64,000 bases of DNA from Nitrosomonas oligotropha. Its GTDB lineage: Bacteria; Pseudomonadota; Gammaproteobacteria; Burkholderiales; Nitrosomonadaceae. A program made the translations under genes and the position numbers. The stretch spans positions 1-64,000 of the forward strand of contig NZ_QRBZ01000012.1 of the NCBI RefSeq assembly GCF_009833085.1, read 5' to 3'. Positions 41,738-62,845 of this stretch are shown here, piece after piece (within the stretch, counting starts at the first letter, position 1; every line of letters starts with the position of its first letter). Under the pieces are notes generated by a model, which was not told the origin of the DNA, ran no database searches, and was given only the letters and a program-made list of their open reading frames with translations.

Positions 41738-43186
41738 TTAAACGGGCGACCGGCTATGCCAATCGGTGGCCAATTGGTATTGGTGCGCAACGTTGAGCAT
41801 TTGCGCTTCCTTAAAGTAATTGCCAATGATGTGCAAGCCGATGGGGCGGTTTTTATCGCCAAAACCAACGGGAATCGACATGGCCGGCATGCCGGTCAGG
41901 TTGGCCGCGCTGGTGTAGATATCCGACAAGTACATCTGGATCGGATCGCCGCTTTTCTCGCCCAGATTGAAGGCGACCGTCGGCGTCGTCGGACCCATGA
42001 TGATGTCGCATTGCTGGTAGGCTTCGGCAAAATCCTGCGCGATCAGGCGGCGCAGCTTTTGCGCTTTGATGTAGTAGGCATCGTAGTAACCGTGCGATAA
42101 CACGTATGTGCCGATCAGAATGCGCCGTTTCACTTCGGGGCCGAAACCTTGCGCGCGCGATTTGCGGTACATGTCGGCCAGATCGCTGTACGATTCGGCG
42201 CGATGACCGTAACGCACGCCGTCAAAGCGGGATAAGTTGCTCGATGCTTCGGCGGGGGCCAGCACATAATAAACCGGGATTGCCAGCGGTGCATTCGGCA
42301 AGGAAATCTCGACCGTTTGCGCACCCAGTTTGCGGTATTCATCCAGCGCTTTGTCGATTGCGCTGGCAACGTCGTTGCTCATGCCCGCGGCGAAATATTC
42401 CTTCGGCAGGCCGATACGCAAGCCTGCTAACGGTTTTTGCAGATCGCGCGCATAATCTTCAACATCGCGTTGCAGACTGGTGGAGTCGCGCGGATCGAAG
42501 CCAGTCATGACATTCAGCAACAGCGCCAGGTCTTCCGCCGATTTGGCCATCGGACCGCCTTGATCCAGGCTGGAAGCGAAAGCGATCATGCCGTAGCGCG
42601 ACACCAGTCCGTAAGTCGGTTTGATTCCCGAAATACCGCACAGCGCGGCGGGCTGGCGGATCGAACCGCCGGTATCGGTGCCGGTCGCTGCCGGGGCCAA
42701 TCTGGCGGCTACCGCGCAGGCTGCGCCACCTGAGCTGCCGCCGGGTACCGCGGCCTGATCCCAGGGGTTTTTCACCGGGCCGTAATAGGAGGTTTCATTA
42801 CTCGACCCCATGGCGAATTCGTCCATGTTGGTCTTGCCGATATTTACTGCGCCAGCTTGATTGAAACGCTCGATGACACCGGCGTCGTACGGTGAAACGA
42901 AATTCGACAGCATTTTTGAACCGCACGTGGTCAACCAGCCTTTGGCGCAGAAAATGTCTTTTTGCGCAATCGGGATACCGGTTAACGGACCGGCTTGTCC
43001 GGCCGCGATCATTTGGTCGGCTGCGCGCGCTTGCGCCAGACTTAGGTCTTCGTTGACGGTGATAAAGGCGTTGTATTCCGGGTTGAGCTGCTTGATGCGT
43101 TGCAGGAATTCGCTGGTCAGTTCAGTGCTGGAAATTTTCTTTCCGGCAAGCTGAATCGAGAGCTGTTTAAGGCTGGCGTTAAACAT
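41738..43186 (-). CDS. gatA: Asp-tRNA(Asn)/Glu-tRNA(Gln) amidotransferase subunit A
   Basis: A 482-residue amidase-signature enzyme that releases ammonia from glutamine for GatB. The Ser-cisSer-Lys triad is present: the lysine in [11 protein letters not shown], and the serines within [18 protein letters not shown] and [16 protein letters not shown]. It is full length and lies between gatC and gatB. Related allophanate hydrolases share the fold, but the operon context and the GatA-type C-terminus settle the assignment. Confidence 0.97.
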
Positions 43187-54318: not shown

Positions 54319-55008
54319 TCACCGCGGCAATGTTTTCAGCAGAACCGCGCTTTCCTCCAAGCGGCTGACTCCGCGCTCACTGAAACGCGGATTTTGTGCC
54401 AGTACATTGTGCTGCGACAGCAGGGTAATTCCGGCATGCGCCCGGAACAGCGAAGTTACTTCATGCAAGGATACCGCAAAGGGCGGGCCGGTCATTTCAT
54501 ACTGCGGATAATCGAGTTTGATGAGCAGGATTTGCGTATTCGCCGGAACAATCCGCAGCAGATGCTCCACATAACGTTTGCGCAGATCGGGCGGTAACGC
54601 GATTAACGCGGCGCGGTCGTATACAGCGCTGACATTGCGCATGTCTTCTGTGCTCAGATCGAAAAAATCGCCGCACAAAATAGCGATATCATCCGCTTCC
54701 CAACGCATGAACCGGCCATGCGAATGGCTTTGCGCTGTCAAAGCGTTTTCGCTGAAAAATGCCTGCGCCGCCGTGGTGCTTAACTCGACACCCCGCACCG
54801 CATGTCCCTGTTGACGCAGCCACAGCATATCCTGACTCTTGCCGCACAGCGGCACGAAGATGGTACTGTCACGGCTCAGTTGCAATGTGTGCCAGAATTC
54901 AAGCAAATACGGATTGGTCCCGTTCTGATGAAAACCGGTGTCATTCCGCTCCCACCGTTCCAGCCAGTATGTTTTTCTGCTGTGTTGTTGCGGATTATCG
55001 TCAATCAT
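54319..55008 (-). CDS. Thiopurine S-methyltransferase family protein, last gene of the guanidine operon
   Basis: A 229-residue SAM-dependent methyltransferase of the TPMT family. It starts [20 protein letters not shown], followed by [10 protein letters not shown], the SAM-binding [26 protein letters not shown] and [17 protein letters not shown], all family landmarks. The start chosen (55008) makes a four-base ATGA overlap with the carboxylase gene, so it is translationally coupled; a longer frame to 55071 would lie inside the carboxylase. Bacterial TPMTs methylate thiols, selenium or tellurium compounds, or act in natural-product pathways. A link to guanidine metabolism is not known to me. 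Confidence 0.82.
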
Positions 55009-58000
55009 GGCGCAGTCTTCTTCAGTACGGCGAGCAATTGCCCGGCGGAGACACCATCTCCCTGGCGGCACAGAATGCGTTCGACGGTGCCGCTGAGCGG
55101 AGCTTCCACGGCAATTTCCATTTTCATCGCTTCGATGACGATCAAGACATCGCCAGCCTTAACCTGCTGGCCTTCCTGGGCCAGTATTTTCCACACGGTG
55201 CCGGTGACCGGCGAGGCGATGGCGTGACTGCCTTCGGGTAAATCCAGCTCGCTTTGCGCATCGGCTTCATCGAGATCCGATTCACTGGCGAACTCCATTT
55301 GCCCGTTGATGCTCCAGCGTTCGCGCTCGGCTTCAAAGGCGGCTTGCTGCCGGGTTTTGAAGTCATGGATCGCCGCTTGGTTTTGTTGCAGAAACTGGTG
55401 ATGTTGCTGCAAACTGAACGTGGTTTCTTCAACGCGCAGTTGAAATTGCCCGCGGATGAAATCCTTGCGCAATTTCAGCAGCTCGCTTTCGCTGACCGGA
55501 TAAAAACGGATCTGGTCGAAGAAACGCAGCAGCCAAGGTTTGCCATCCTTGAAATCGGCGGTTTGACGGTAGCGGTTCCATACCGGCAGCGTGCGCCCGA
55601 CGAATTGATAACCGCCCGGGCCTTCCATGCCATAAATGCATAAGTACGCACCGCCGATGCCCACGGCATTTTCCGGTGTCCAGGTTCGCGCCGGATTGTA
55701 CTTGGTGGTGACCAGGCGATGCCGCGGATCGGCCGGTATCGAGACCGGCGCGCCCAAATACACATCGCCCAAACCCAGAACCAAGTAACTGGCGTCAAAC
55801 ACGATACGATGCACCGCCTCGATACTATCCAGCCCATTGATACGGCGGATGAATTCGATATTGCTCGGGCACCACGGCGCGTCGCTGCGCACCGATTGCA
55901 TATATTTCTCGATCGCAAGGCGCGTCGCCGCATCGTCCCAGGATAGCGGTAAATGCACGATACGCGACGGCACGGACATGCTGGCGCTGTCCGGCAGCGA
56001 CTGTTCCGCGGCGAGCAAGGTTTGCAGCAGGCTGTCGCGCGGCAGAATTTGCGCATCGAAATGAATTTGCAGCGAGCGGATTCCCGGCGTGAGATCGATA
56101 ATGCCGGGCAAATTGACGTGTTGCAGCCATTCCATCAAGGCATGCGCGCGAAAGCGCAAGTCCAGATCCAGCACCATCGGACCGTATTCCACCAGCAAGT
56201 TGTGATCGCCCGATTGGCGGTACGTCACCGCCATTTGTTGCGGGCCTTCGGCGATCTGATGCAGAATCGGGCTCGGCAATGCTGCAATCGCACCGCTGGA
56301 TGCTAATGCGGGCGGCGCATGCAACGACCGGATCGATTCGTTCTGCTGTTTTTCCAGCGTTTGCGCTTGTTCCATCGTCAGCGGGCGGAAGCGGATCTGG
56401 TCACCCGGTCTGAGTTGTCCGACCTTCCATAATTCGGCATGAGCCACGGTCACGGGACAGACAAAACCGCCCAGGCTCGGGCCATCCGGCCCCAGAATGA
56501 TCGGCATGTCACCGGTAAAATCGACCGCGCCGATGGCGTACGCGGTATCGTGAATATTGGACGGATGCAAACCGGCTTCGCCGCCGTCACTGCGCGCCCA
56601 CTGCGGTTTCGGGCCGAGCAGGCGCACGCCGGTGCGGCTGGAATTGTGATGCACTTTCCAATCCGTGTTGAAGAACGTTTCGATATCCGCAGCGGTGAAA
56701 AAATCGGGCGCGGCGTGCGGGCCGTACAAAACACCGATTTCCCATTGATGCGTGTAGTGAGGAATCAATTCCGGCACCAGCACGGTTTGCGCCGGTTCGT
56801 ATTTTGCCGTGATGTGCAGCACATCGCCCGCCCGCAGCGCACGCCCGGCGTGGCCGCCGAATTGCCCCAGCGTGAAAGTCGATTTACTGCCCAGATAGTC
56901 CGGCACTTGAAATCCGCCTTGCACCGCGAGGTATGCCCGGCAACCCTGATCCTTGATTTTGCCCAATTGCAGCACCGCCCCGGCCTTGATTTCGTGCGAC
57001 TGCCATAGGGGCAGCGGCGCGCTGTCCAGATAGACTTCGATCGCCGCGCCGGTCACGGCGATCAGGCAATCGCTGTTGAAACGCAACGTCGGGCCGGTCA
57101 AGGTGATTTCCAGCGCCGCTTGGTTTGCGGCATTATTCACCAGCCGGTTGGCCAAGCGGAACGCGAGCGCATCCATCGGCCCGGAGGGCGGCACGCCGAT
57201 CTGCCAGTAACCGAGCCGTCCAGGGTAATCCTGCACGGTGGTCTGCACGCCGGGGACTAAAACGTCCAAGGTATGCGCGCGATAATGAAAGCCATTGAGA
57301 AAGCCGGTGGTGTATTGCCCGTTGCGGAATTGCGCGCTGCTGAGAATTTGCTGCAAGTAATCCAAATTGGTTTCGATGCCTTGTAACGAACTGCTTTCCA
57401 ATGCACCCTGCAACCGCGCGATGGCTTTTTCCCGGTCCGGCGCGTGCGCAATGATTTTCGCCAGCATCGGATCGTAAAACGCGGATACATCGATGCCGCG
57501 CTCGACCCAAGTTTCAACGCGCGCCGCTGCGGGAAATTCCGCCGCCGTGAGTGTGCCGCTGGAAGGTTGAAAGTCTTTGGCCGGATTTTCGGCGTAAACC
57601 CGCGCTTGAATCGATACGCCACGGGGTTCGATGCTGAAGGAATCGAGCGGCGGCAAATCGCCCGCGGCTTGCCGCACCATCCATTCCACCAGGTCAATGC
57701 CAGTTACTTCCTCGGTCACGCCATGTTCCACCTGCAAGCGCGTGTTGACCTCGAGGAAATAGAACTGGTTGCTGGCAGCGTCAAAAATATATTCCACCGT
57801 ACCGGCGGATTGATAATTGACCGCTTGGCCGAGACGCACCGCCGTGTCCAGCAGCGCCCGGCGCAATGGCGGGGCGAGATGAGGCGCCGGGGTTTCCTCG
57901 ATGACTTTCTGGTTGCGCCGTTGCATGGAGCAATCGCGTTCGCCCAATGCGACGACTTGGCCGTAACCGTCGCCGAAGATTTGTACTTCGATATGGCGTG

Positions 58001-58613
58001 CCTGGTCGACAAATTTTTCCAGAAACAAACCGGCATCCTTGAAATTATTTTGCGCAAGATTCTTGACCGATTCATAAGCGCCGCTCAGCTCATCCTGGTT
58101 CCAGCACAAACGCATGCCGATGCCGCCGCCACCGGCGGTGCTTTTCAGCATCACCGGATAGCCGATGTGCTTGGCTTGATGGCAAGCATCGTCGAGATTC
58201 GCCAGCAAACCGGTGCCGGGCAGCAGCGGCACTTGATTTTCCAGCGCCAGCGCCCGGGCCGTATGCTTCAGACCGAACGCGCGCATTTGCTGCGGCGTCG
58301 GACCGATGAAACAAATACCGTGCGCCGCGCACTGTCCGGCAAAATCGGCGTTTTCGCTGAGAAACCCGTAGCCGGGATGAATCGCCTGCGCGCCGGATTG
58401 CTGCGCGATGGCCAGGATCTTATCGGTGCGCAGGTAACTGTCGGCCGCGACGCCTTCACCGATGCAATAAGCTTCATCGGCCTCATTGACATGCCGCGAT
58501 AATGCATCGGCTTCGGTGTATACCGCGACGCTGGTGACGTTCATGCGGCGCAGCGTGCGTATGATGCGGCAGGCAATGGCGCCGCGGTTGGCGATGAGCA
58601 CTTTATTGAACAT
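55005..58613 (-). CDS. Biotin-dependent guanidine carboxylase (urea carboxylase family)
   Basis: A 1202-residue enzyme of the urea carboxylase family. The biotin carboxylase part (about residues 1-450) has [26 protein letters not shown] and [20 protein letters not shown]. The carboxyltransferase part comprises a KipA-like half (about 470-770, [22 protein letters not shown]) and a KipI-like half (about 800-1010, [18 protein letters not shown]). The C-terminal biotinyl domain carries EAMKME with biotin on Lys1164. The family includes true urea carboxylases and guanidine carboxylases. The guanidine-I riboswitch and two DUF1989 genes in the same operon favour guanidine, giving carboxyguanidine. 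No allophanate hydrolase domain is fused. The substrate call is inference from context. Confidence 0.82.
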
Positions 58614-58640
58614 ACGATCCTCCGGAATCCGAAACTAGCG

Positions 58641-59300
58641 TTAATCCCAAATCAGTAAACGTATCGGTGTCGGATTATAGGCATTGCACGGATTGTTCAG
58701 TTGCGGACAATTCGAGATCAATACCACGACATCCATTTCCGCGCGCATTTCGACATACTTACCGGGCGCCGAAACACCATCGGCAAACTCCAATCCGCCC
58801 GATTCCGTGACCGGCACGTTCATGAAGAAATTGATGTTGCTGGGCAGGTCGCGCTTGCTCATGCCCAATTGCTGGCACAGCGGATCGTGCGCCAAAGCGT
58901 GCAGAAAATTGTCGCGGCAACTGTGCATCGGAAATTTCTCCAGGGCATAGCGCACGGTATTACTTTCTGCTGCACAAGCACCGCCGAGCGTGTCGTGCCG
59001 CCCACAGGTATCGGCAACGATCGTGAGCATGACATTGCCGGAGTTGGAATACAGCTTGCTGCCGGTGGTCAGGTACAGTTTATTCTGCCGGTTGATGGTA
59101 TCGGTCGCGCTGTAGCGTTCTTGCGCGTCGTGCGCATTGTAAAACAGCGTATCGACCGCTTGATTGCCTTCCAGATCGACAATGCGGAATGTTTGTCCGC
59201 GTTTGATTGCTTTGACCCACGGCTCACCGGCCGGGCAAATTTCATTGATCAGCGCTTGGCTGGGATCGAGCGGACTGGCAAATTGAGTAGAGGTATTCAT
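58641..59300 (-). CDS. DUF1989 protein, UAAP2 type; probable carboxyguanidine deiminase subunit
   Basis: A 219-residue protein long called urea amidolyase-associated protein 2. It begins after a short lead with [20 protein letters not shown] and contains [34 protein letters not shown], the cysteine in MHSCRDNFL and [16 protein letters not shown]1989 pairs in guanidine operons have been shown to form a carboxyguanidine deiminase (CgdAB), releasing ammonia and leaving allophanate. Its ATG overlaps the stop of the preceding DUF1989 gene by four bases. The assignment of CgdA versus CgdB to this gene is not made here. Confidence 0.85.
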
Positions 59301-60022
59301 TGTTTACCCTCGCAATAAAAGTGTTGCGCGTTCTGCAGCGCGCGGATATTTTCGGCGATATGCAGGCATTCGCTGGCTGCATCCGCTGGCGTATCGAATA
59401 GTTCCAGATTGACCGCGCCGGGCTGATACGGTTTCCCCGGATCCAACGGATGCGGTGCGGCGGACAATATCATCAAGGTATTCATGACAAAACTGAGGTC
59501 GACATAATCGCCCGCTTTGCTGTGATTGACTTGATATTGCAGTTCCCCCAAGTGATCGGCGGTCACTTTACTGAAAAAATTGATGTTGGCGACCACATCG
59601 CGCATGCCCAGCCCCCATTTCCCCAGTTCGATCAGCATGCCGTCCAGGCCGCTGCGGAACATTTGATTGCGGTGCTCCTGATAACGCGCGGTGCCGTATT
59701 TTTGCTGGATCAGATTGGCGTCGCTCAGGCCGCATACGGTGTCGTTCCAACCGGCGGTATCGGCTGTGATGCAACAAAATATCCGTCCCATATCGGAATG
59801 GCACGCATGGCCTTTGGTGAGGCGGAAAGTATGCTGCGATTTCAGGGTGTCCGCCATGTTATAGCGCTCCAGCTTTTCTTCCTGATTGAAGAATAGCACA
59901 GCAGCATTCGCGCCTCCGCTGACATCGGTGAGACGCAGCGTGGTGCCGCGCCGCAGTACCCCGGACCAGTGGCATCCGCCTGGAATGAGTTGTTGCCAGA
60001 TGGGTTTATTGTGTTGATTCAT
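59297..60022 (-). CDS. DUF1989 protein, UAAP1 type; probable carboxyguanidine deiminase subunit
   Basis: A 241-residue paralogue of the next gene, long called urea amidolyase-associated protein 1. Landmarks are [66 protein letters not shown] and ANINFFSKV. The conserved aspartate, histidine and cysteine residues recur in both paralogues, consistent with a heteromeric enzyme. It lies 13 bases after the permease and overlaps the UAAP2 gene by four bases, so the two should be made in equal amounts. Confidence 0.85.
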
Positions 60023-60035
60023 GATGAATTCCTCA

Positions 60036-61484
60036 TTAAAAATGGGTTGACTTGCTGGGCATCCATTTTTTGCACAGGATGTACAGTGTGGTGCAGGTTA
60101 AAATACATCCCAGCACCAGAGGCGTCGCCCATAACTGCCACCACGGCGCATCCGCGGAAATGGCATAAGGGCGCGGCCAGGCAATGTTGATGAGCTCAAA
60201 CAATGACCAGATAAACGCCAGGCCATTGATGATCAATCCCCACGCGCCCAGCTTTAATTCGCCCAATGCGGGATTCCACCGTCCTGTGAGCCGGGCAAAC
60301 AAGGCAAAGCCGGTGGTGAACGTGAACATGGCGTATAAACCGCCGGTGCCGAACGCGATGATGGTGGCCACGGCATCGTCATTGAGCCCGAAAATCAACC
60401 CGCAACCCGCCAGCAGAACGGTAAAGAGAACCGCGTTACGCGGCGTTTTGCTCGCCGTGACTTGACTCAATACTGCGGGCATATTGCCTTCGCGCGCCAT
60501 GGAAAAAACAATGCGCGAGGTGTATTTGACCATCGATGCGCCGCAAGCCAGGAAAGCCGTCATCACGATGGCCAGAAACGGTTTCTCAAACCAATCGCCG
60601 ATGCTGCTGGCGATCAAGGGCGTGACCGGATCGGCGGTATGGCTGGAATTTCTCAAGGTGTCATGTTCAAAGGCCAGAATCAGCGCGGCTGAATTGAACA
60701 AGACGACTGTGCCGACGACGAGTAGCGACATGAAAATGGCGCGGGGCACCATGCGCTTCGGTTGATGCGTTTCTTCCGCGGTGGTGGAGCAGGCATCGAA
60801 ACCGATAAAAGCCCAACCGGCAATGGCCAGTGCGGCCAGAAAAGCAGCCATTTCGCTGGGAGCTGTGCCGGTGCCCATGTGCTGGAACAATTCCATGACA
60901 GGATGCTGGCGGAAGAAAAAGAATAATAACAGCGCCACGCCGAATGACCCGGCGACTTCCGCGTAAACACCCAGTTTGATGACCAGATTGAAAATACTGA
61001 CCGGGGCTAGATTGAGGAATGTGCAAAGCAGCAGAAATAGGGCACCCCACAGCACCATCATACCGCCGCCAGCCCCCGGCGATCCGCAAAAGGTGGCGAG
61101 CCAGAAGCCGCCGGTATAAGCGGTCGTGGTGACCATGGCGATGGTGGAGCAAATATAAATCACACCGGCATATTGCCCGGCGATCGCGCCGCCGAGTTGC
61201 CGCGCCCACTTATAAGCGCCGCCGGCAATCGGAAATTGTGAAGACAATTCGGCGTAAACGGTAGCCACCAATAACTGCATGAGCAAACAAACCGCCAGCG
61301 CGGCAAACCAGCCGCCACCGGCGACCACCGTTTGTACGCCGATGATGGCATACAGTCCGGCCACCGGTGAGACCACCGCAAAACCGAGCGTGAAACTGTG
61401 CCATACACTCATGCTGCGGCTCAGCGTATCGCTTGCCACAGGGGCATTTTGCGCAGCAGAGATTTGTTTTGTTGAATCTGACAT
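60036..61484 (-). CDS. APC-superfamily permease, probable guanidine importer
   Basis: A 482-residue integral-membrane transporter of the amino acid-polyamine-organocation superfamily with about twelve hydrophobic segments, in the group annotated as urea carboxylase-associated permease. Near the N-terminus TLGFAVVSPVAGLYAIIG is the unwound first membrane helix of the family, and PIAGGAYKWARQLGG and WAFIGFDACSTTAEETHQPKR are further landmarks. The chosen ATG (61484) is preceded by ATGGAGAC; a longer frame to 61538 would run into the riboswitch leader and is rejected. As first gene under a guanidine riboswitch it most likely imports guanidinium. Confidence 0.85.
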   Translation of the reverse strand: MSDSTKQISAAQNAPVASDTLSRSMSVWHSFTLGFAVVSPVAGLYAIIGVQTVVAGGGWFAALAVCLLMQLLVATVYAELSSQFPIAGGAYKWARQLGGAIAGQYAGVIYICSTIAMVTTTAYTGGFWLATFCGSPGAGGGMMVLWGALFLLLCTFLNLAPVSIFNLVIKLGVYAEVAGSFGVALLLFFFFRQHPVMELFQHMGTGTAPSEMAAFLAALAIAGWAFIGFDACSTTAEETHQPKRMVPRAIFMSLLVVGTVVLFNSAALILAFEHDTLRNSSHTADPVTPLIASSIGDWFEKPFLAIVMTAFLACGASMVKYTSRIVFSMAREGNMPAVLSQVTASKTPRNAVLFTVLLAGCGLIFGLNDDAVATIIAFGTGGLYAMFTFTTGFALFARLTGRWNPALGELKLGAWGLIINGLAFIWSLFELINIAWPRPYAISADAPWWQLWATPLVLGCILTCTTLYILCKKWMPSKSTHF

Positions 61485-61518
61485 AACCAGTCTCCATACC
61501 AAAGGGTTTAGCGGGATT

Positions 61519-61541
61519 GTAATGTACTTCGAGCACATTAC
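61519..61541 (-). promoter_or_regulatory. Hairpin between riboswitch aptamer and permease start
   Basis: The stretch folds as gtaatgt with acattac (seven pairs), extendable by G-U, C-G and U-A pairs to a tight three-base loop. It lies between the aptamer and the ribosome site and has no T-run after it on the minus strand. It may be part of the switching platform, more likely acting on translation than as a terminator. Function is inference. Confidence 0.45.
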
Positions 61542-61546
61542 GCTTA

Positions 61547-61645
61547 ATCTCCCGGGCTTTTATCCCTCCGTGGAGCCTCGTTATCACGAGACCGGAAACT
61601 CTTGGACCTGACGCCTTTTATTACACTGGCCGGAACCCTAGTTTC
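61547..61645 (-). ncRNA. Guanidine-I (ykkC) riboswitch aptamer
   Basis: On the minus strand the leader contains the hallmark blocks of the ykkC guanidine-I class in the right order: CTAGGGTTCCGG (61641-61630), GGTCCAAGAG (about 61609-61599; the usual form has G at the sixth position), and ACGGAGGGATAAAAGC (61571-61556) running into CCGGGAGA. Between them a variable hairpin CTCGTGATAACGAG is seen. The aptamer ends about 64 bases before the permease ATG. Members of this class bind guanidinium and turn on downstream genes. This is the main evidence that the operon handles guanidine rather than urea. Confidence 0.93.
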
Positions 61646-61722
61646 CCATTGCGTTACCGCTTTTTGAGTTGCTACGCCACCAATCGTTCAACGGGCATTT
61701 TAGAAAGCGAGTAACGAGTGGC

Positions 61723-61792: not shown

Positions 61793-61829
61793 AAAATAAA
61801 GAAGCCGCACTTTTTTGAAGTGCGGCTTC
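61793..61829 (-). terminator. Terminator of the VWA/PEP-CTERM gene
   Basis: A 12-base-pair stem, gaagccgcactt (61801-61812) with its complement (61818-61829), has a five-base loop and is followed on the minus strand by TTTATTTT. It lies about 20 bases after the stop of the VWA gene and separates it from the guanidine operon. Confidence 0.88.
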
Positions 61830-61849: not shown

Positions 61850-62845
61850 TCAAGCGATGCGGCGACGGTATGCACAGCCTACTAACACAAGACCCAATCC
61901 GAGCATTGCGTAGGTGCTGGGTTCGGGTACTGCAGTGAGGATCAATTCTGCAGTAGCACTATTACCTAGCGTATCGTATGCAACAGCAGTAAACACATTA
62001 GCGCCGAAGAATAGCGTAGCATCGGGTAATACGAAGTTTCCTAGACCATCGATAGCGATATGGCTGATGAACGAACCGTCATTCATCGTCACATCCACGT
62101 AATCAATACCCACTAGATTACCAGCCGTGCCATTGAACAAGTCTACTAAACTAGTTAGATCGCTGGCGTTGGTATAGATGCCGTTTCCTGCGGTAGCGAT
62201 ACTCTGCATTGTCAACACGTTATGGCCGGGAATGCCTACGGTATGGATAGCGTCGACACCCAAACCCAGTGCGGCGGTGGCGCTGGCGACCGCAGCAGCA
62301 CGGTTGCTTTCACCGTCAGACACTACTACCATCATTTGGGTGCGGCCGTCGATATGGTTGGAGCCAGTAAGCTCGGTACTTGCACGGTCAATACCAGCGT
62401 CAATGGCAGTTCCACCTGAAGCGTCTATTGCTGTGATTGCTGAAAGCACCGAAGCTGAGCCACTGGATAACGGTGTGAGCCCTTGCAATAGCGAGGCACT
62501 ACTGTCGAAATCGATGACAGCTACCGAAGTGCTATCCACCGGCAGAGCGTTTACCAGTGCGGCAGAAGCTTCCTCCAACCAAGCGTTGCGGGACTTTCCG
62601 CTGTTTATAGTGCTCATGCTGCCCGATGAATCGAGGACTAAGGCCAGATCAAGGCCTGTGCCACCGATGATGCCGCTGGCGTTGGCATTGCCAAATGGGT
62701 TGACTATTTCGCCTACAGAATAGGTCGCCAGAGGAGAAGGTCCCGTCCACGATACTGCTACCGCAGCTATGGATGTACTCGATACACCTAATCCGATTGA
62801 TGCTACCGCAGAAACTACAAGCCATTGTCTAATGATTTTTGTCAT
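61850..62845 (-). CDS. Secreted VWA-domain protein with PEP-CTERM sorting signal
   Basis: A 331-residue surface protein. A signal peptide (residues 1-28, ending SIAA) is followed by a von Willebrand factor A domain (about 65-235). Its metal site is DSSGS at 72-76, with a second block VVSDGES. A beta-rich region follows (235-300), then the C-terminal PEP-CTERM signal: VPEPSTYAMLG, a hydrophobic stretch and the RRR anchor. Proteins of this kind are processed by exosortase and associate with extracellular polysaccharide. AAGGAT precedes the ATG. It is monocistronic, with its own terminator. Confidence 0.9.
   Translation of the reverse strand: MTKIIRQWLVVSAVASIGLGVSSTSIAAVAVSWTGPSPLATYSVGEIVNPFGNANASGIIGGTGLDLALVLDSSGSMSTINSGKSRNAWLEEASAALVNALPVDSTSVAVIDFDSSASLLQGLTPLSSGSASVLSAITAIDASGGTAIDAGIDRASTELTGSNHIDGRTQMMVVVSDGESNRAAAVASATAALGLGVDAIHTVGIPGHNVLTMQSIATAGNGIYTNASDLTSLVDLFNGTAGNLVGIDYVDVTMNDGSFISHIAIDGLGNFVLPDATLFFGANVFTAVAYDTLGNSATAELILTAVPEPSTYAMLGLGLVLVGCAYRRRIA

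Follow-up and report, generated by a model that had tools for sequence, protein, structure and literature searches.

Can an operon that is conventionally read as a urea carboxylase system supply an ammonia oxidizer with nitrogen from guanidine, and how would the reaction sequence be completed when its last enzyme is missing? This question is raised by a locus in a 64,000-nucleotide stretch of Nitrosomonas oligotropha DNA (contig NZ_QRBZ01000012.1; the whole analyzed stretch is called the window). The initial annotation had interpreted the locus as a riboswitch-controlled guanidine assimilation operon. We found that the guanidine operon is real and belongs to the published kind, but as a variant without the terminal enzyme allophanate hydrolase (AH); what the locus does beyond the identity of its genes is predicted from the sequence. 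The central claim of a guanidine operon in an ammonia oxidizer is already published (Palatinszky et al., 2024, PMC11410670; this and the other articles are cited from excerpts). The locus comprises the following elements:

61547–61652, minus strand: guanidine-I (ykkC-yxkD) riboswitch aptamer (RF00442, 88.9 bits, gathering threshold 63)
61484–61546, minus strand: leader from the aptamer to the likely permease ATG (61484–61482), with a 10-bp hairpin and a GGAGA Shine–Dalgarno-like site
60036–61538, minus strand: permease gene of the APC superfamily (PF13520, 113.8 bits, cut-off 27), with ATG 61484 as the likelier start
59297–60022, minus strand: DUF1989 gene of the UAAP1 type, predicted carboxyguanidine deiminase subunit (TIGR03425, 320.1 bits, cut-off 206)
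58641–59300, minus strand: DUF1989 gene of the UAAP2 type, predicted carboxyguanidine deiminase subunit (TIGR03424, 351.6 bits, cut-off 285)
55005–58613, minus strand: predicted biotin-dependent guanidine carboxylase of 1202 aa, annotated as urea carboxylase (TIGR02712, 1963.7 bits, cut-off 1304; alignment with the K. lactis enzyme and residue checks)
54319–55008, minus strand: thiopurine S-methyltransferase (TPMT) family gene (TIGR03840, 267.5 bits, cut-off 223)
61801–61829, called on both strands: terminator-like hairpin with a 12–13-bp stem, between an upstream PEP-CTERM gene and the operon

Aptamer, permease, the two DUF1989 genes, carboxylase and TPMT follow each other 5′ to 3′ on one strand. 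Downstream from the permease the junctions are a gap of 13 bases, an overlap of 4, a gap of 27 and an overlap of 4, and the gene order and tight spacing given in the initial annotation hold. For the last junction the TPMT start was set to ATG 55008, which overlaps the carboxylase stop as ATGA (the open reading frame list has 55071). This spacing suggests a single transcript for the operon genes. The operon is not a chance arrangement, because the aptamer scored over the cut-off in 73 of the 85 Nitrosomonas genomes surveyed and the core gene order is kept in the fetched loci.

When the whole window was scanned with Rfam, the guanidine-I aptamer was the sole match over the cut-off (E 1.3e-14). 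It spans the full model (positions 1–107), which bears out the ykkC element recognized in the initial annotation, and no second guanidine-I aptamer was found across the 3.12-Mb genome. The segment originally delimited ended at 61645, 7 nucleotides inside the aptamer. Between the aptamer and the likely start codon no intrinsic terminator was seen, and the longest U run was 3. In ligand-free calculations, a fold that pairs the 3′ half of the aptamer with the Shine–Dalgarno/AUG region was favored by 11 kcal/mol over the one in which the aptamer was forced. The computed accessibility of the Shine–Dalgarno site was alike in both folds (0.22 and 0.23), and that of the AUG was 0.43 in the alternative fold and 0.79 with the aptamer formed; compared with shuffled sequences, the leader fold had a z-score of −2.2. 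The leader may act by translational or Rho-dependent control. The guanidine-I class has been described as acting on transcription (PMC11410670).

To define the probable substrate of the biotin enzyme, we inspected two diagnostic positions. Guanidine carboxylases are told apart from urea carboxylases by an Asp at the position of K. lactis residue 1330, and an Asp at 1584 is required (PMC11410670). In the alignment with the K. lactis urea amidolyase (5i8i), Asn1330 faces D698 and Asp1584 faces D950 of the window protein. Of 89 aligned rows, 86 have Asp at the D950 position and three have a gap. At position 698 Asp was present in 102 of 105 rows, with two gaps (fragments) and a single Thr; the row with Thr and two of those with Asp come from distant carboxylases that are not properly aligned there. 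The enzyme also carries an AMKM biotin site. Thus, its substrate is very probably guanidine rather than urea, and the proposal that the annotated urea carboxylase is a guanidine carboxylase stands as a prediction from the Asp signature.

The two DUF1989 neighbors represent one of each subfamily, and we take the UAAP1 gene to be CgdB and the UAAP2 gene to be CgdA. Their earlier assignment as a carboxyguanidine deiminase pair agrees with both models being passed; this call follows the curated UAAP models and not the tree-based definition of PMC11410670. The permease scored below the TIGR03428 cut-off (157 vs. 740 bits) and is presumed from its family to import guanidine. As for the host, the genome (3.12 Mb, assembly given as 100% complete) encodes AmoA (PF02461, AMO, 395.6 bits at G000:C53), and the window carboxylase is 96% identical to its counterpart in Nitrosomonas oligotropha Nm75. 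These features identify an ammonia-oxidizing Nitrosomonas of the N. oligotropha lineage, as had been supposed.

Schneider 2020 and Sinn 2021 reportedly deal with the guanidine carboxylase pathway. In the published scheme, as far as the excerpts show it, this pathway ends with AH. When we searched the window's own genome with TIGR02713, no match over the 511-bit cut-off was obtained. The matches below the cut-off were the window amidase at 41750–43069 (207 bits) and two stand-alone C-domain genes. That amidase was also the only one found in the genome with PF01425; it adjoins GatB and scored 604 bits with TIGR00132 (cut-off 481), and as GatA it was ruled out as a candidate AH. A tblastn search for an AH remnant between the window carboxylase and TPMT found none. 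The genome does encode urease alpha (UreC, 986 bits), alongside UreA, UreB, UreD, UreE, UreF, UreG and a yut urea transporter. Since AH was found neither in the operon nor in the genome, full ammonia release needs another route, for instance urea plus urease. Allophanate is reported to decarboxylate spontaneously to urea (PMC3944691), and therefore urease could finish the work. Of the guanidine import and ammonia release initially claimed, import and the first steps are predicted from the gene families, and release beyond the first NH3 would probably have to follow such a detour.

Combining these elements, we propose that the guanidine-sensing leader RNA would control both import and breakdown of guanidine, which would enter via the APC permease. 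As judged from families and residues, the biotin enzyme would use ATP to carboxylate guanidine to carboxyguanidine, an intermediate that the DUF1989 heteromer would deiminate to allophanate and one NH3. Allophanate would then decarboxylate spontaneously to urea, urease would split the urea to give two more NH3, and the NH3 may serve assimilation as well as ammonia oxidation. We regard this entire scheme, riboswitch-controlled guanidine use without AH and completed via urea and urease, as fairly probable, and the urea–urease finish for the remaining nitrogen as reasonably likely.

To find out how common the variant is, AH and urease were surveyed in the 85 genomes. The carboxylase was over the cut-off in 78 of them, AH in 34 and urease alpha in 50; the AH count includes G057, which passed only just with an AH broken into several frames, and G020, where AH is a fragment at a contig end. 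Seventy genomes were of good quality, with a completeness of 90% or more and a contamination of 5% or less, and the carboxylase is present in 67 of them. Both AH and urease were present in 20 of these 67, AH only in 9, urease only in 21, neither in 16, and one genome without AH has a urease fragment. AH is absent in 38 of the 67, a count in which G004 is taken as AH-less with its AH in two frames, and G038 with its carboxylase at a contig end.

Several of these and other observations weigh against the proposed scheme. Sixteen of the 67 genomes lack both AH and urease, among them the closest relative, G067, so that urease cannot provide the final step throughout. AH loss was not associated with urease (urease present to absent, 20:9 with AH and 21:16 without), nor were the two associated on independent tree pairs. 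The tree used was a carboxylase tree built by a quick method from 78 rows (72 genomes with a carboxylase of at least 1000 aa, a second G070 copy and five outside loci). Over the good genomes, the AH state changes at least nine times on it and urease 12 times; being a gene tree, it could show transfer as loss. Furthermore, the fetched flanks of some relatives outside the genus, for example Steroidobacter (L213, L218), Erwinia (L220–L222) and a Nitrospira metagenome-assembled genome (MAG; L169), hold no AH, and AH may sit elsewhere or may in places have been gained rather than lost. Finally, and bearing also on the suggested contribution to energy metabolism, none of the five beta-proteobacterial strains tested in PMC11410670, which have all of the genes including AH, could use guanidine by itself according to the excerpts; a fraction of it was turned into nitrite by three of the five, only when ammonium was present.

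Where AH does occur in the genus, it is the next gene 3′ of the carboxylase in 31 of the 34 AH-positive genomes. It occupies the same place in, for example, Nitrosospira (L226) and Gallionella (L210); because of this shared position, AH is probably ancestral to the operon. In the remaining three genomes, the AH of G043 has its own riboswitch, and that of G020 and G052 was not on a fetched locus. In G043 (L079) the AH and this separate guanidine-I riboswitch lie away from the main operon.

A DNA comparison showed how AH can disappear. AH stands after the carboxylase and before TPMT in G016 and G037, and their close kin G045 and G084 have the same flanks with an in-place AH deletion scar. Of the AH gene, the scar retains about 50 bases from the start and up to about 64 from the end, which meet at a TGCTGCA stretch (base counts from printed coordinates; the G045–G016 alignment covers only the last 5 bases of the AH end). 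In three genomes (that of the window, G067 and G015) TPMT begins within the end of the carboxylase gene, the overlap being four bases. Searching 50 AH-less regions downstream of the carboxylase for AH fragments by tblastn (five more were skipped as too short) returned a real split AH gene for G004 and, for G013, a match of 53 aa lying partly inside the carboxylase overlap; the matches in G005, G045 and G084 were weak and also partly inside that overlap, and the DNA comparison settled G045 and G084. A replacement gene beside the carboxylase was dismissed, as the fetched AH-less loci have no common 3′ gene. Repeated loss of AH, shown in two relatives and inferred elsewhere, would have shortened the operon in over half of the genus.

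Some loci deviate further. In the Nitrospira-titled MAG (L169), permease, CgdB, CgdA and a carboxylase 77% identical to that of the window are present, and neither an AH in the 6 kb downstream nor an aptamer match in the locus was found. Four MAGs with Nitrosospira, Nitrosovibrio or Nitrosomonadaceae in their titles (L185, L189, L199, L200) show just the riboswitch, the permease and a carboxylase with the Asp signature; no other pathway gene lies nearby. DUF1989 matches were lacking in all four genomes and present in 3 of 3 comparison genomes; the four MAGs measure 1.6–2.1 Mb with completeness not given, and the absence is not proven. In N. eutropha and kin (G006–G009, G023, G024, G040; L072, L073, L082–L085, L093, L096, L116), there are two guanidine-I aptamers each, one of those in G009 being below the cut-off. 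In G023 and G040 the two are on different contigs; in the other five of the seven genomes they lie back to back. A full carboxylase follows one aptamer, and the other precedes permease, CgdB, CgdA and a carboxylase of 771–795 aa, which has the carboxyltransferase and the biotin site without a biotin-carboxylase domain (domains scanned in 3 of the 7). In G042 (MAG_20; L153/L204, L235), a single-contig chromosome, the carboxylase is split between two distant places, with the N-terminal part next to permease and deiminase genes and the rest next to TPMT; this is either a rearrangement or an assembly error.

Could an unrecognized enzyme replace AH? The two stand-alone AH C-terminal domain (PF21986) genes of the window genome (L003:1507–1881 and L004:1513–1863, the second cut by a stop) would be candidates. 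Full or nearly full-length copies occur in 16 of the 51 genomes without AH and in none of the 34 with it (Fisher 1e-4), the copy in G060 being put together from two contig ends. Urease was found in 11 of 12 carriers vs. 10 of 25 non-carriers among the 37 good genomes that lack AH (Fisher 0.004). However, the association of these proteins was not significant on independent tree pairs, and fragments of 31 to 54 model positions occur not only in AH-less G031, G058 and G042 but also in AH-bearing G051. The His of the GAHLSG motif, which we take to be catalytic in AH, is conserved in 31 of 31 AH rows but is Leu in all 13 aligned carriers covering it (the alignment did not include G015, G042 or the window genome's second copy, and G060 does not cover the site). 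A literature search on the mechanism of the AH C-domain found nothing. Neighboring genes were shared only within small groups of carriers, with no apparent guanidine or urea gene among 14 loci inspected by eye; in G005 the PF21986 gene lies about 19 kb from urease alpha, a link not seen elsewhere. The proteins are kin of 5c5z and of plasmid proteins and were treated as a separate family. Replacement of AH by an unrecognized enzyme, these proteins included, is very unlikely, and the C-domain candidate was rejected.

A more serious alternative is that the shortened operon serves detoxification or the harvest of a single nitrogen: guanidine, whether taken up by import or by leakage, would be converted to allophanate and one NH3, and urea would leave as waste. 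The 16 genomes without AH and urease speak for it, since they include G008 and also G067, the operon of which is near-identical to that of the window (97% for the carboxylase), as do the AH changes on the carboxylase tree that took place without compensation by urease. On the other hand, a dedicated permease in the operon argues for uptake and not for defense, although its direction is only predicted, and the window genome has both urease and a urea transporter. We consider this explanation possible but on the unlikely side. That the locus is after all a conventional urea carboxylase operon for urea use appears highly improbable: the names of the TIGR02712 and UAAP models suggest it, but the guanidine aptamer, the Asp signature, the lack of AH and the presence of urease all point elsewhere. 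Moreover, no nitrite was formed from urea by Nitrosomonas sp. Is79, the annotation of which includes urea carboxylase and AH but no urease (PMC3764937).

Comparison with known systems places the window operon as follows. Guanidine genes were counted in 135 of 145 beta-proteobacterial ammonia-oxidizer genomes, with the carboxylase route only, and most ammonia oxidizers with guanidine genes have an APC permease in the same region (PMC11410670). These operons share riboswitch, APC permease, Asp-signature carboxylase, deiminase pair and host type with ours; the five tested strains, however, have AH, whereas the window operon lacks it and has TPMT after the carboxylase. With the guanidine carboxylase pathway described elsewhere (PMC12186494, PMC12508155) it has the carboxylase and CgdAB steps in common, but there an ABC importer and AH are employed in place of an APC permease and no AH. 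The comammox guanidinase route (PMC11410670) shares the riboswitch, the APC permease and, if our proposal is right, a second half via urea and urease. In contrast, its nickel guanidinase makes urea in one ATP-free step, and the window operon itself contains no such gene. A further study distinguished separate atzF clades and, as excerpted, had no guanidine genes in its own MAGs (PMC12625717). Guanidine operons of ammonia oxidizers that lack AH did not come up in the literature searched, which did not cover the genome supplement of PMC11410670.

The last gene of the operon deserves a separate comment. TPMT matches of at least 190 bits occur in 64 of the 85 genomes, but the gene follows the operon in only 13, window included (11 directly after the carboxylase, 2 after AH), and in 10 of these 13 it is located beside the same convergent PAS-GGDEF-EAL gene. 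With this distribution, a role as core guanidine-modifying enzyme was rejected. TPMT is probably a lineage-limited neighbor that is co-transcribed here and not part of the pathway; its position at the end of the operon (the ATGA overlap) is as given in the initial annotation. At the other end, a PEP-CTERM protein with a von Willebrand factor type A domain (61850–62845) is encoded directly upstream on the same strand, followed by the long-stemmed hairpin. Terminator-like sites in the region numbered 29 vs. 10.3 expected, and the hairpin at 61801–61829 has the longest stem; it probably isolates the operon from the upstream gene. A promoter scan identified none, with 2 promoter-like sites vs. 5.1 expected in shuffles.

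As a more speculative and rather unlikely generalization, the operon may have been cut back stepwise in much of Nitrosomonas and kin, AH being lost and then, in the four MAGs of the Nitrosospira lineage, the deiminase. What remains would convert guanidine to urea, or serve to remove guanidine, and would give no more than one ammonia where neither the strain nor a neighbor has urease; ammonia oxidizers would in this way feed urea to ureolytic members of the community. Guanidine is a newly recognized nitrifier substrate, and most beta-proteobacterial ammonia oxidizers have been counted as carrying genes for its degradation (PMC11410670). If it is true that 38 of the 67 good genomes with the carboxylase are without the last enzyme and that 16 are also without urease, gene presence may overstate the nitrogen that these bacteria can release from guanidine, and cultures differing in AH and urease content allow a direct test.

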